Source: Aequorivita sp. (GTDB lineage Bacteria; Bacteroidota; Bacteroidia; Flavobacteriales; Flavobacteriaceae). From it: DNA of 64,000 bases. Every line of letters starts with the position of its first letter. Positions within the stretch are counted from its first letter, which is position 1. The stretch is taken from assembly GCA_024637015.1 (NCBI GenBank), contig JAGXGE010000011.1, positions 124,001 through 188,000 of the forward strand. The letters run 5' to 3'. Positions 2,463 to 24,178 of this stretch are shown piece after piece. The notes below the pieces were generated by a model that made no database searches, had not been told where the DNA came from, and saw nothing but the letters and a program-made list of their open reading frames with translations. The position numbers were made by a program, and so were the translations under genes.

Positions 2463-4616
2463 ATGAAAATTTCAGTCATTACTTTTTTTTCACTTTTTTC
2501 ACCCTTTTTCATTTTTGGTCAAAACACAGTTGCCGGCTCGGTTACAGATAATAACGGAACACCAATTATTGGCGCGAATGTATATATCGAGGGCTCTTAT
2601 GACGGAGCATCTTCAGACGACAACGGAAAATTTTCTTTTGAAACTTCGGAAACAGGAACTCAAACCTTAACTATTTCCTTTGTTTCCTTTGAAACTTTCA
2701 AACTGACCGATGATATTTCAAAAATGAAAAACCTAAAGATCGTGCTTCGGGATGATGTTAATTCTTTAGAAACTGTAACCATTTCTGCAGGGTCATTTTC
2801 TGCAGGTGACAATAGCAAGATTTCAGTTTTAAAACCTTTGGATATTGTGACAACCGCAAGTGCATTGGGCGATTTTGTGGGCGCTTTGCAAACGCTACCT
2901 GGAACCACAACTGTTGCCGAAGATGGTCGTCTTTTTGTTCGTGGTGGTGATGCTGGTGAAACCCAGATTTTTATTGACGGCATTCGTGTTTTTACTCCCT
3001 ATAGTCCAACAACCGATAACATTCCGACCCGTGGAAGATATAGTCCGTTTCTTTTTGACGGAATTACTTTTTCAACTGGAGGGTATTCAGCAGAATATGG
3101 GCAGGCGCTTTCCTCTGTTTTACTATTGAATACAATTGATGAACCCACACAGGAAAAGACCGATATTGCGATTATGAGCGTTGGTGGCGGCTTAGGGCAT
3201 ACTGAAAAGTGGGAAAAAAGTTCGTTGAGTTTAAATGCTTCCTATATAAATCTTGCGCCATATATTGCAATCCTTCCTGATAGAAATGATTGGCAAAAGC
3301 CTTTTGAAACAGCTTCAGGTGAAGCGGTTTTCCGACAGAAAATAGGGGATGGGTTGTTGAAAGTTTATGGAGCATTTGATACTTCCAACTTTGCGCTTAC
3401 ACAGGAGGATGTTAACCAGTCCGAAGGAGTTCGTTTTAAATTGAACAATCAAAATTTTTATACCAACGCCAGTTTCAGTGAAATGCTAGAAAACGATTGG
3501 ACAATTTTTGCTGGGGGAAGTTATACTTACGGAAACACAAAGGTGGGTATTGATGAATCGGATATTAAAGATGTGGAAAATTCTGCACATTTAAAGTTGA
3601 AGTTGAAAAAACGTTTCAGCAATCGGTTTAAACTGAATTTTGGTGCAGAACAATTTGTGACCGATTTCAATGAAAATTACGAAGAACCCAATTTTGCATC
3701 GAAGCTTGAATTTAACAATAATATTTCAGCGGCCTTTACTGAAGCAGATATTATCTTTTCACGAAAACTTGCTTTAAAGTTGGGCGTTCGTGGAGAATAC
3801 AGCGAGCTGTTTACGGAGTTTACGGTTTCGCCCAGAGCTTCTTTCGCCTATAAAACAGGGAAGAACAGTCAACTTTCTTTGGCTTACGGTGATTTCTTTC
3901 AGCAACCGGAAAATGAAGTTTTGAAATTCACGAATGATTTGCAAGCACAGCACACACAACATTATATAATGAACTATCAATATTCCGCTAATAACCGAAT
4001 TTTTCGTGCGGAAGTTTATAGAAAGAAATATAGCAATTTGGTGACTTATAATGAAGCAATGCCAGATGTGAATAGCATATTTGATAATAGCGGTGATGGT
4101 TATGCACAAGGATTGGATTTATTTTGGCGCGATAATGAAACCCTAAAAAATATAGACTATTGGGTAAGTTATTCCTATTTGGATACTGAGCGGAAATATA
4201 AAAATTTTCCGATTGAAGCTACCCCGAGCTTCGCGAATACTCACAATCTTTCGGTTGTCGCAAAATACTGGATCAACGATTGGAAAAGTCAAATAGGCTT
4301 CAGCTACCAATACGGAAGTGGCCGGACTTATACAGATTTAAATGAACCAGGATTTCTTCAGAAAAAAACAAAAGGGTATAACAGTGTGAGTTTGAACTGG
4401 GCATATTTATTATCACAACAAAAGATTCTCTATTTTTCAATAAACAATGCTTTCGCCTTTAAGAATGTTAATGGATATCAATACGCAAATACGGCAGATT
4501 CCAACGGAAATTTTGCGCGAAGAGAGCTTCGCCCAGCAGCGGATCAGTTCTTTTTTGTTGGATTCTTTTGGACCATTAGCGATGATAAAAAGGATAACCA
4601 ACTAGATAATTTGTAA
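2463..4616 (+). CDS. TonB-dependent outer-membrane receptor with carboxypeptidase-D-like N-terminal domain
   Basis: The 717-residue protein starts with a signal peptide (MKISVITFFSLFSPFFIFG|Q). A carboxypeptidase-regulatory-like beta-sandwich follows (residues ~22-105, VAGSVTDNNGTPIIGANVYIEG). Next is a plug domain (residues ~120-230, with LFVRGGDAGETQIFIDGIRV) and then an outer-membrane barrel ending in FFVGFFWTISDD. It should import a substrate through the outer membrane using TonB energy. The substrate cannot be told from sequence and no SusD partner is adjacent. It heads a same-strand run that continues with a small membrane peptide, a TPR protein and a LytS/LytTR system, so it may be a target of, or sensor input to, that system (inference). 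Confidence 0.9.
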   Translation: MKISVITFFSLFSPFFIFGQNTVAGSVTDNNGTPIIGANVYIEGSYDGASSDDNGKFSFETSETGTQTLTISFVSFETFKLTDDISKMKNLKIVLRDDVNSLETVTISAGSFSAGDNSKISVLKPLDIVTTASALGDFVGALQTLPGTTTVAEDGRLFVRGGDAGETQIFIDGIRVFTPYSPTTDNIPTRGRYSPFLFDGITFSTGGYSAEYGQALSSVLLLNTIDEPTQEKTDIAIMSVGGGLGHTEKWEKSSLSLNASYINLAPYIAILPDRNDWQKPFETASGEAVFRQKIGDGLLKVYGAFDTSNFALTQEDVNQSEGVRFKLNNQNFYTNASFSEMLENDWTIFAGGSYTYGNTKVGIDESDIKDVENSAHLKLKLKKRFSNRFKLNFGAEQFVTDFNENYEEPNFASKLEFNNNISAAFTEADIIFSRKLALKLGVRGEYSELFTEFTVSPRASFAYKTGKNSQLSLAYGDFFQQPENEVLKFTNDLQAQHTQHYIMNYQYSANNRIFRAEVYRKKYSNLVTYNEAMPDVNSIFDNSGDGYAQGLDLFWRDNETLKNIDYWVSYSYLDTERKYKNFPIEATPSFANTHNLSVVAKYWINDWKSQIGFSYQYGSGRTYTDLNEPGFLQKKTKGYNSVSLNWAYLLSQQKILYFSINNAFAFKNVNGYQYANTADSNGNFARRELRPAADQFFFVGFFWTISDDKKDNQLDNL

Positions 4617-5605: not shown

Positions 5606-6934
5606 ATGTTTATTTTAAAAGAATTTGGTAAGGCATTTTTTGTTGGAACCCTTGTATTTATAATATTGGGGTTAATTCAGTATATCAACGGATATGAATT
5701 TGCCAATGGTAAGGAAATTCTTATAGCGTTTCTTTATAATCAACTGTATTCGGTTGTTCTTTATATGGTCAACGCTCACTATTTTGGGTTTTTGCTGAAA
5801 AAATTTCCAAACCAGGTTTTTAAGGCTAGAAATCTTTTAAAAGGGCTTTTAGGTGGAATTTTGGTCACACTTTTGGGGCTCTTTTTTATTCGCGTAATAA
5901 CGGAAGTAGTAATTGAAGGAAGAAGTTTTTCAGAATTTATATCTTATGAAAAGATTGAATATTATTATATATCGTTTATCATTTCTGTTGTAGTTACCAC
6001 TATTTTTTATGCTTTTTATTATTACCGAAATAAACAGCAAACCATTGTAACCGAGCAAAAAATAATAGCTGGCACGGCTTCGGCAAAGTTTGACGCCCTT
6101 AAAAACCAATTAGATCCACACTTTCTTTTTAATAGCTTGAACGTACTCACCAGCTTAATTGAAGAAAACCCTGAGGCTGCAACCCGTTTTACAACTTCCC
6201 TCTCAAAAGTCTATCGCTATGTTTTGGAACAGAAAAGCAAAAAATTGGTAACGTTGGAGGAAGAACTTAAATTCGCTAAATTATACATGTCTTTGTTGGC
6301 AGTTCGTTTTGAAGACAGCATTGTTTTTACTTCGCCTTCAAAATTAGAGAACCCACAGGCGAAAGTGGTTCCGTTGTCGCTTCAACTTTTATTGGAAAAT
6401 GCCGTGAAGCACAATCAAGTTACGCCTTACAAGAAACTTTACATAACTATCGCTGAAGATAACGGTAATTTGGTTGTGACCAATAACAGCCAGCCCAAAC
6501 AGGTTTTAAAAGAAAGCACAGGAGTTGGGCTGCGAAACATTCGCGACAGATATTCACTTTTAACAAAGCGGCCCGTAATTATTAATCAGAACCAAAAAGA
6601 ATTCAGTATTGCGATTCCTATTTTAGGAGAAAATATTCAAATAATGAATACACCGGATACATTTATTTCAGAAAAAAAATACAGGATTGCCAAAAAGCGA
6701 GTTGAGAAGCTGAAAGGTTTTTACATTCACTTGTTTATCTATATCCTCTTTGCACCTTTTTTTATTTATTTAAATTACATATCAAATACAAGTTTTCCTT
6801 GGGCGCTCTTTCCTATTGTGGGGTGGGGCATTGGCGTTATGGGCCATGCTGTAGAAACCTTTAACTACAACCCTCTCTTCGGAAAAAACTGGGAGGAGCG
6901 TAAAATAAGGGAATTGATGGACAAGGATGAATAA
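5606..6934 (+). CDS. LytS-type sensor histidine kinase with C-terminal 2TM domain
   Basis: The 442-residue protein has four hydrophobic segments within residues 10-145. A His_kinase (PF06580-type) domain follows with the phospho-accepting His172 in QLDPHFLFNSLNVL. The HATPase region has LQLLLENAVKHN as its N-box and TGVGLRNIRDRY as its G-box. After the kinase, residues ~360-442 form an additional 2TM domain (RIAKKRVEKLKGFYIHLFIYI ... GWGIGVMGHAVETF ... WEERKIRELMD). Putting a membrane domain after the ATPase is unusual. The kinase should phosphorylate the LytTR regulator at 7771. Two free 2TM proteins lie between them, so the three 2TM modules may form one membrane complex (inference). Confidence 0.9.
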   Translation: MFILKEFGKAFFVGTLVFIILGLIQYINGYEFANGKEILIAFLYNQLYSVVLYMVNAHYFGFLLKKFPNQVFKARNLLKGLLGGILVTLLGLFFIRVITEVVIEGRSFSEFISYEKIEYYYISFIISVVVTTIFYAFYYYRNKQQTIVTEQKIIAGTASAKFDALKNQLDPHFLFNSLNVLTSLIEENPEAATRFTTSLSKVYRYVLEQKSKKLVTLEEELKFAKLYMSLLAVRFEDSIVFTSPSKLENPQAKVVPLSLQLLLENAVKHNQVTPYKKLYITIAEDNGNLVVTNNSQPKQVLKESTGVGLRNIRDRYSLLTKRPVIINQNQKEFSIAIPILGENIQIMNTPDTFISEKKYRIAKKRVEKLKGFYIHLFIYILFAPFFIYLNYISNTSFPWALFPIVGWGIGVMGHAVETFNYNPLFGKNWEERKIRELMDKDE

Positions 6935-22670: not shown

Positions 22671-23033
22671 ATGAATGTATTAAAAATACTATTAGTTTTA
22701 TTATTTATCAGTTTCGTTTCATTCGCACAGGACGAAAATTATGTAAAGGAAAATTACAACAAAACGGAAACCATAATCACAATGCGAGATGGCGCGAAGC
22801 TTTTCACGGTAATTTATTCTCCAAAAGATACTTCGAAAAAATATCCCATACTTTTCCAAAGAACACCTTATAGTTGCCAACCTTATGGCGAGGATCAATT
22901 TCGTTCAAAAATTTCTCCCAATGAATTTTTAATGAAAGAAGGATTAAAGAGGATAGGTACAAAAAACAAGTTTCCCGACCATTGGCCGGGAAACTTTAAC
23001 AAACCTAACTTAGTAAACTTTAAAGTGCACTAA
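22671..23033 (+). pseudogene. CocE/NonD-type hydrolase, N-terminal fragment
   Basis: The first 91 residues look like the start of an X-Pro dipeptidyl-peptidase (S15)/CocE hydrolase. There is a signal peptide (LLVLLFISFVSFA) followed by ETIITMRDGAKLFTVIYSPKD and YPILFQRTPYSCQPYG, ending at NEFLMKEG near 22943. A full enzyme would have over 500 residues including the catalytic triad, and none of it is present. The remaining ~29 codons run into a minus-strand RNA gene and are not protein-like. I read it as a gene cut off by a deletion. Confidence 0.75.
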
Positions 23034-23088
23034 GAATATTTTCTATCCCCACAAAAAATATTTCTTTGTGCATTATCCACTAATTCTA
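22961..23088 (-). ncRNA. Structured small RNA with 6S-like architecture (candidate 6S RNA)
   Basis: A minus-strand promoter (23094-23124) drives about 128 bases that end in an intrinsic terminator: stem GTTTCCCG/CGGGAAAC at 22970-22994, then a T-run on the minus strand at 22961-22966. Between them is an imperfect closing stem (23079-23086 with 23007-23014), an asymmetric internal loop (23073-23078 against 23015-23025), and a long terminal hairpin (GTGCA/TGCAC, then CTT/AAG, then AAAATATT/AATATTTT) with a 12-base loop. Closing stem, central bubble and terminal stem is the layout of 6S RNA, and a 6S-Flavo family is known in this group. The match to that family was not tested. Confidence 0.6.
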
Positions 23089-23093
23089 TGATT

Positions 23094-23124
23094 CAAATAT
23101 AGACTAGTTATTAAATTTTCACAA
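23094..23124 (-). promoter_or_regulatory. Promoter of the minus-strand small RNA
   Basis: On the minus strand a consensus -7 box TATATTTG (23094-23101) is preceded by a TTG -33 element (23122-23124) at a 20-base spacing. The predicted transcription start is near 23088. No protein gene on the minus strand lies downstream of it. Confidence 0.7.
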
Positions 23125-23194
23125 TACGTACTTACACGTATTTTTCTGATTAAAATCATTTTAAATTGCAAACAATAATAGTAACTTTCAGACT

Positions 23195-24178
23195 ATGAAA
23201 AAACCAATTAAAATAGGTGTTTTAACCAGTGGAGGAGATGCCCCAGGAATGAATGCAGCTATTAGGGCAGTAGTTAGGTCCTGTGTATATCATAAAATGG
23301 AATGCGTAGGTATTTATCGTGGTTATGAAGGTTTAATTGAAGGAGATTTTAAGGAGCTAAATGCGCGCTCGGTAAAAAATATAATTAACCGAGGTGGCAC
23401 ATTTCTCAAATCTGCCCGTTCAAAGGGGTTTATGACCGTCGAAGGTAGAAAAAAAGCTTTCGAAAATCTTAAAAATGCAAACATTGATGCCTTGGTAGTC
23501 ATTGGTGGCGACGGAACTTTTGCTGGAGCTTCTGTGTTTATAAAAGAATTTAATTTCCCCATTGTTGGCCTTCCAGGAACTATTGATAATGATATTAACG
23601 GAACGGATTACAGCATAGGCTATGACACTGCTTTAAATACCGCTGTAGAAGCGATTGATAAAATTCGCGATACAGCAAATTCACACAATCGTCTTTTCTT
23701 AGTAGAAGTGATGGGCCGCGATGCAGGCGATATTGCATTAAACGCAGGAATTGGAGCCGGAGCAGAGGAAATTTTGATTCCCGAACAAAATATGGGCCGC
23801 GAACGTTTGTTGGAATCTTTAAACCGAAGTAAGAAATCAGGAAAATCATCAAGTATCGTTGTAGTTTCCGAAGGAGATCAAATTGGAAAAAACATCTTTG
23901 GTCTTGCTCAATATATTGAAGAAAACTTAAAAGAATATGAAGTGCGGGTTACCGTTCTCGGCCATATTCAACGTGGTGGTTCACCCAGTTGTTATGACCG
24001 TGTTCTTGCCAGTCGCTTAGGTGTTGGAGCGATTGATGCGCTATTGCGAGGTGAAACAAACGTTATGATTGGTATAATTCATAATAGAGTAACCTCGGTT
24101 CCCTTTTCCGAAGCAATAAAAGGAAACAATGAAATTGACGAAGAATTGATACGTGTAGCAGATATAATTTCAATTTAA
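23195..24178 (+). CDS. pfkA: ATP-dependent 6-phosphofructokinase
   Basis: The 327-residue protein has the ATP-site motif LTSGGDAPGMNAAIRAVV, GGDGTFAGA, and the catalytic segment GLPGTIDNDINGTDYSIGYDTALNTA with the catalytic Asp. VEVMGRDAGDIAL and LGHIQRGGSPSCYDRVLASRLG complete the substrate site. It makes fructose 1,6-bisphosphate. It is the first gene of a tight sugar operon with gap, an N-acetylglucosamine kinase and pgi. The small RNA gene lies directly upstream on the other strand. Confidence 0.97.
   Translation: MKKPIKIGVLTSGGDAPGMNAAIRAVVRSCVYHKMECVGIYRGYEGLIEGDFKELNARSVKNIINRGGTFLKSARSKGFMTVEGRKKAFENLKNANIDALVVIGGDGTFAGASVFIKEFNFPIVGLPGTIDNDINGTDYSIGYDTALNTAVEAIDKIRDTANSHNRLFLVEVMGRDAGDIALNAGIGAGAEEILIPEQNMGRERLLESLNRSKKSGKSSSIVVVSEGDQIGKNIFGLAQYIEENLKEYEVRVTVLGHIQRGGSPSCYDRVLASRLGVGAIDALLRGETNVMIGIIHNRVTSVPFSEAIKGNNEIDEELIRVADIISI

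Follow-up and report, generated by a model that had tools for sequence, protein, structure and literature searches.

A structured small RNA with a conserved upstream palindrome in Aequorivita and other Flavobacteriaceae, probably part of a two-component regulon

Between two plus-strand genes of Aequorivita sp. lies a region that a preliminary description read as a minus-strand RNA gene with the layout of 6S RNA. Is this RNA a real feature, does it belong to a known family, and what might it do? We addressed these questions in a 64,000-nucleotide stretch of DNA, referred to here as the window, and in homologous loci of related genomes. The names of neighbouring genes (pfkA, the hydrolase, TilS and others) were recognised from sequence and are those that we take to apply. 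The locus consists of the following parts.

22961..23089, minus strand: structured small RNA of about 129 nt (from the fold, homologue searches and compensatory changes)
23094..23101, minus strand: -7 promoter box TATATTTG, matching the Bacteroidetes consensus TAnnTTTG
23124..23141, minus strand: 18-bp palindrome ATACGTGTAAGTACGTAT, proposed to be the operator through which a response regulator controls the RNA promoter (from homologue loci)
23075..23083, minus strand: 5' arm of the closing stem P1, UUAGUGGAU (from a G-U to U-A double change and single-sequence folds)
23010..23018, minus strand: 3' arm of P1, GUUUACUAA (on the same basis)
23039..23058, minus strand: apical hairpin UUUUUUGUGGGGAUAGAAAA with the near-invariant loop segment GUGGGGAUA (from alignments and folds of members)
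22997..23009, minus strand: near-invariant 13-nt linker GUUAGGUUUGUUA from P1 to the terminator, proposed seed (from alignments)
22961..22996, minus strand: intrinsic terminator of 13 pairs and a 3-nt loop followed by GTTTTTT; its stem varies with compensation
23195..24178, plus strand: presumed pfkA, the divergent neighbour, shown for context only (name from sequence recognition)
22671..22949, plus strand: remnant of a presumed S15/CocE-type hydrolase gene, outside the RNA, with an internal deletion near 22939-22943

The 5' end of the RNA was placed from the -7 box, which would lie about 4 nt upstream of it, and the 3' end from the terminator; both are predicted positions. Consensus scans alone do not single out the locus. 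They found 4 promoter-like sites where 5.0 were expected and 1 terminator-like site where 0.6 was expected, neither beyond chance, and the case for the RNA therefore rests on conservation. The RNA region folds at -43 kcal/mol, compared with -22.46 ± 3.05 kcal/mol for 200 shuffled sequences (z -6.73, none of the 200 as good). In the fold, a closing stem of 9 pairs encloses an asymmetric interior, a stem of 5 pairs and the apical hairpin, and the terminator hairpin follows. As first described, the region lacks a protein frame: the longest closed ATG-initiated sense frame among 80 distinct homologues spans 35 aa, and 20 of them contain none at all. An Rfam search of the 64-kb window gave no match to any family at the gathering score, which agrees with the earlier suggestion of a possibly new RNA, and a search of 20 distant homologue loci and one divergent member (L285) at the same threshold gave none either. 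Comparison of these sequences indicates that the structured standalone RNA running from about 23089 to 22961 on the minus strand is a real feature, and the originally proposed structured RNA of about 128 bases is borne out by both the fold and its conservation with covariation.

The predicted fold is supported by compensatory changes, which the preliminary description had singled out as something to look for in relatives. In a genus alignment built blind to structure (A1), 98.0% of the cells form standard pairs, compared with 42-50% when the partner is slid, and 11 pairs have changed on both sides, a number that none of 500 shuffles reached. The strong intrinsic terminator reported earlier is present at 22996-22961, and within the genus 7 of the 13 pairs of its stem carry changes on both sides. 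A MAFFT alignment of 41 diverse sequences has 94.4% paired cells in the closing and apical stems (44-57% when slid) and contains 44 cells changed on both sides against a shuffle mean of 20 (0 of 500 shuffles as high; slid partners, 1-21). The number of pairs with double changes in this alignment, 5 against 3.6, is not significant, as 72 of 500 shuffles were as high and slid partners reach 6. In P1, a G-U pair is replaced by U-A in four of the 41 aligned sequences, and RNAalifold run on the MAFFT alignment of these distant sequences recovers the apical stem only. An Infernal-fitted alignment (A4) also agrees with the fold, with counts that lean towards the model. Folded singly, 74 of 80 members form P1 with at least 6 pairs and all 80 form the apical hairpin, the latter figure being favoured by the pattern used for collecting.

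The stems vary freely, while the apical hairpin loop and the 13-nt linker ahead of the terminator are strongly conserved and constitute the most conserved parts of the RNA. The linker GUUAGGUUUGUUA is invariant in the genus alignment and nearly invariant in the broad set, with a mean unpaired probability of 0.73 over the 80 members (at least 0.8 in 39 of them). Because the pattern used to collect loci from named genomes fixed both loop and linker, their invariance in distant loci is partly built in.

A search with the 176-bp stretch 22955-23130 located the RNA in all 24 Aequorivita genomes, our own included. The query matched 25 of 39 genomes in total, and the sole match outside the genus was weak, covered 28 bases and came from another family. 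A pattern scan of named genomes yielded 70 stretches with the RNA pattern, which is also present in Altibacter, Ulvibacter, Patiriisocius, Marixanthomonas, Marinirhabdus, Cochleicola, Aureisphaera, Aureitalea, Pukyongia and Halomarinibacterium. Loci L003-L127 form the working set and correspond to 80 distinct members, 28 of them from Aequorivita by our count. Two covariance models were built, R1 on 24 sequences and R2 on 41. At E<=0.001, R1 matches 38 and R2 matches 52 of 397 Flavobacteriaceae genomes. With R2 at E<1e-10, 34 of the 397 genomes remain, from 22 genera by our tally and with one strong match each, and a gap separates this group from the next score at 2e-5. The weak R2 matches in the family fall in 20 places (E 2e-5 to 9e-4). 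Among the 16 inspected, one is a true divergent homologue, ten are another RNA, described below, and five are neither. The divergent homologue, L285, contains the palindrome, the loop and the linker, and adjoins presumed DsbD-like and TilS-like genes. Eight genomes matched by R1 had no assigned locus; four of these match R2 at E<1e-10 and four do not match R2, and one of the eight, G115, was represented later by loci L184 and L209.

Across 346 genomes of the order, R2 matches 10 at E<=0.001, two of them strongly (our own genome and G113). The other eight genomes have one weak match each, and G113 has a weak match besides its strong one, which makes nine weak places. Judged by eye, none of the weak loci of the eight genomes carries the RNA, and three carry the other RNA just mentioned. 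No R2 match was found in the 12 shown genomes of g142 (probably Flavobacterium), and the 346 genomes contain no convincing member outside Flavobacteriaceae.

This other RNA is a second conserved RNA-like element, observed in other Flavobacteriaceae genera (L275-L279, L284, L286, L287 and L289, around base 3000). It consists of a hairpin like AATGTACAACTGGTAATTGTACATT, a linker GGTTAGTTTGGTTTGGTAT and a terminator, and is preceded by the conserved upstream sequence GCATCC...CGTATATA...ACGCTAA...TATAAAAT, in an alignment that covers seven of the nine loci. The element has no Rfam match. It looks unrelated to the RNA described here, yet has a similar G/U linker, GGUUAGUUUGGUUUGG.

The promoter was originally read as TTG-N20-TATATTTG. 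This arrangement is present in the window, and the -7 box is a perfect TAnnTTTG in 76 of 78 RNA loci, but TTG occupies the corresponding place in only 18 of the 78. The conserved element is instead the 18-bp palindrome that ends there, with the consensus ATACGTGnnnnYACGTAT. It is found upstream of the RNA (at least 12 of 14 letters) in all 78 distinct loci with enough upstream DNA, two of the 80 members being too short for the count, and is separated from the -7 box by 22 nt in 65 loci and by 21 nt in 13. Most Aequorivita loci were gathered with a query that holds the last 7 bases of the palindrome; the remaining loci were gathered with R1 and the pattern scan, neither of which includes any of it. 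Palindrome and spacing are retained at loci where pfkA is not the neighbour, indicating that the palindrome belongs to the RNA.

Two places in the own genome match TACGTGnnnnYACGTA exactly. The one away from the RNA lies directly behind a LuxR-type response-regulator gene and is followed by a poor -7 box, GATATTTA. A one-mismatch palindrome at C20:13368 has TATATTTG 22 nt downstream and stands ahead of a frame of 351 aa that gave no Pfam match. Allowing up to one mismatch, this genome contains the palindrome alone 10 times, no more often than its reversed pattern (11 times).

The composite of palindrome core, spacer and TAnnTTTG occurs in 78 of the 397 family genomes, with about 161 matches, compared with about 29 when the pattern is reversed (our sum); the RNA itself accounts for no more than some 34 of them. 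Genome G100, which carries the RNA, has an array of roughly ten secreted genes that look alike (L270, G100:C33:254000-269000), and four palindrome-promoter units lie within it, ahead of curlin-like genes. The three genes tested from this array are all Curlin_rpt, and csgE and csgF follow. LuxR-type regulators adjoin the site in four of the 37 site loci, namely L128, L273, L188 and L191. The query regulator genes came from L128 (ORF 835-1473) and L273, which leaves 2 of 35 as the independent count. These regulators share 36-54% identity over about 200 residues with the regulator of our own genome. A weak regulator match (23-24%) was obtained in one further site locus, L181, and the 90 comparison loci contain one weak match (27%). 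NarL-type regulators bind pairs of heptamers separated by 2 bp. The palindrome fits this layout as TACGTGT-AA-GTACGTA, two heptamers 2 bp apart at a fixed distance from the promoter. From the neighbourhood of the sites and the shape of the motif, we consider it fairly likely that a response regulator of the LuxR/NarL class activates the RNA, which probably belongs to a two-component regulon. The regulator would bind the palindrome with its centre near -44 and turn the RNA on from an activator position, replacing the non-conserved -33 element.

Other genes follow palindrome-promoter units as well. In three genera (L167, L180 and L182), the unit precedes genes for hydrophobic proteins of 59-70 aa ending in APTGS. 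G399 (L272) has 18 units; G382 (L271) has eight, seven of which fall in a stretch of about 47 kb.

By comparison of the loci, the RNA constitutes one unit of about 129 nt, which has a conserved fold, ends in a terminator of its own and is preceded by a TAnnTTTG promoter and, at a fixed distance, by the palindrome. We lean towards a new family of standalone, regulator-switched small RNAs of marine Flavobacteriaceae that would pair with mRNAs without Hfq. Hfq (PF17209) has no match in the own genome, and we do not take Hfq as defining in Bacteroidetes. The near-invariance of the linker GUUAGGUUUGUUA and the loop GUGGGGAUA suggests base-pairing with mRNAs. The RNA may act in trans through the linker, perhaps together with the loop, and the pairing sites might be leaders or start regions of mRNAs, plausibly those for surface or secreted proteins.

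Searches for such sites did not exceed their controls. Allowing up to two mismatches, the linker complement matches only 50 places in the own genome, whereas its reversed pattern matches 109. The exact 12-mer AACAAACCTAAC has 54 matches in 27 RNA-bearing genomes, 27 of which are the RNA genes themselves. The other 27 do not outnumber the matches of the reversed pattern (about 37, our sum); a dinucleotide-matched control, AACCTAACAAAC, gives 17. Nine of the 27 sites are in sense orientation and lie at a start codon or up to 110 nt ahead of it, and the genes concerned mostly encode secreted proteins or lipoproteins as judged by eye; as 7 of the 17 control sites are also in leaders, with one place common to both sets, this does not count as evidence. 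The following observations were made post hoc and serve as leads. A loop complement of at least 7 nt follows within 60 nt downstream in 3 of the 27 seed sites and in none of the 17 controls, relative to a background of 1.3% of windows in a pool that includes loci holding the RNA. A secreted protein is preceded, at a distance of 48 nt, by a 19-nt perfect complement to the RNA of the same genome (L222, L184). Finally, L218 and L236 combine a seed site with an 8-nt loop complement in the right order.

It is possible, although in our view unlikely, that the partner of loop and linker is a protein or another small RNA, in which case the RNA would act as a protein-binding or sponge RNA and not on mRNAs. 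Strong conservation of these two segments next to freely varying stems fits such a role, as do the target tests that did not beat their controls, the only partly open linker in the folds and the missing Hfq match. Pairing seeds typically are conserved U/G-rich linkers beside a terminator, which is what the RNA contains, and the two sites whose complementarity covers loop and linker in the correct order, found post hoc, likewise speak for mRNA pairing.

RNAs of the 6S type mimic a promoter, bind the RNA polymerase holoenzyme and template product RNAs. The preliminary description likened the predicted fold to 6S RNA and named as a possibility 6S-Flavo, listed as RF01685 in Bacteroidetes (Weinberg et al. 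2010, PMC2864571). The RNA resembles 6S-Flavo in phylum, in its similar length and in being a standalone noncoding RNA. Its size and its long imperfect hairpin with an asymmetric interior would fit a 6S-type RNA, and the conserved UAGGUUUG happens to match the -7 consensus TAnnTTTG. The RF01685 model, however, has no match in the window at its gathering score of 85 bits and none at E<=10 within 22900-23200, and no 6S family of any kind matches the locus even at E 10. The genuine RF01685 gene of this genome is located elsewhere, on contig C1 (101.2 bits). The closing stem, asymmetric interior and terminal hairpin that were predicted are present, but conservation peaks at the apical loop and the linker before the terminator and not at a central bubble mimicking a promoter. 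We therefore regard it as very improbable that the RNA is RF01685 itself or a second 6S copy.

The two 6S-Flavo matches on C1 (L001 and L002) are exact reverse complements and symmetric about the centre of this 49,682-base contig. They probably reflect an assembly palindrome rather than two genes.

The 5' neighbour, assigned in 75 loci, is presumably pfkA in 46, beta-phosphoglucomutase in 9, a LacI-type regulator in 8, an amylase-like gene in 4 and another gene in 8. The 3' neighbour, assigned in 76 loci, is presumably the S15/CocE-type hydrolase in 30, a DsbD-like gene in 24, TilS in 20 and another gene in 2, and is convergent in 75 of them. With variable neighbours and a convergent 3' gene, the RNA appears to be an autonomous unit, and judged from sequence it has its own predicted promoter and terminator, independent of the neighbours. 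That it acts locally in cis on pfkA or the convergent gene, either as antisense or as leader, is very improbable: it adjoins pfkA in the Aequorivita loci L003-L026, but RNA, operator and spacing are kept in the 29 of 75 loci with a different 5' neighbour, the 3' neighbour is convergent behind the terminator in 75 of 76 and not the co-directional downstream gene expected of a cis leader or riboswitch, and we reject a cis element of pfkA in particular on the persistence of RNA and operator without that gene.

The RNA had also been held to account for the truncation point of the adjacent hydrolase fragment. The remnant at 22671-22949 corresponds to the first ~91 codons of intact genes of ~613 aa at the same place in several other Aequorivita. 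Its DNA is 94.8% identical to L106 up to L106 base 5364, and the similarity resumes at 6924, near the gene end. As read from this alignment, the hydrolase gene is cut by an internal deletion of ~1.56 kb, which left the RNA in place, and not by the RNA.

To our knowledge, little is known about small RNAs of Bacteroidetes outside Bacteroides. Among the matches listed in the open-licence literature on Bacteroidetes and flavobacterial small RNAs, we recognised no description of the RNA. OmrA/B are enterobacterial small RNAs that are controlled by regulators and act on the curli network; together with RprA, they act on csgD and use Hfq. GibS is reportedly a trans-acting small RNA of Bacteroides thetaiotaomicron. 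Like GibS and FopS, the RNA described here is a small RNA of Bacteroidetes, with the trans action reported for those two being proposed for ours. FopS, from the same species, represses translation of SusC-like transporters and is described as having 14 paralogues in one genome (PMC11697453), which would set it apart from our RNA with one strong match per genome (34 genomes). The closest flavobacterial precedent is Rfp18 of Flavobacterium psychrophilum, whose deletion lowers the mRNA of two metalloproteases (PMC9723704). Like our RNA, it is a structured small RNA of flavobacteria whose conservation extends past its own species; its predicted pairing through a third stem-loop would distinguish it.

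RprA is an enterobacterial small RNA under regulator control that acts on the curli network (PMC3465796). Our RNA shares with RprA and OmrA/B the proposed control by a regulator and a tie to a curli regulon; here the tie consists of a shared operator in one related genome (G100). A wider reading, which we consider quite doubtful, is that a two-component system commands, through one operator at fixed spacing, both curli-type matrix genes and an RNA that would grip mRNAs at two sites simultaneously without Hfq, for which the RNA with the GGUUAGUUUGGUUUGG linker may substitute in genera without the present RNA.

The regulation and the targets of the RNA are now directly testable, as a covariance model and some 80 sequences are available, along with a predicted promoter, a defined operator and a candidate family of regulators. 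Marine flavobacteria are major polymer degraders. If the shared operator holds true, post-transcriptional control would be linked to the curli and extracellular-matrix programme of these bacteria.
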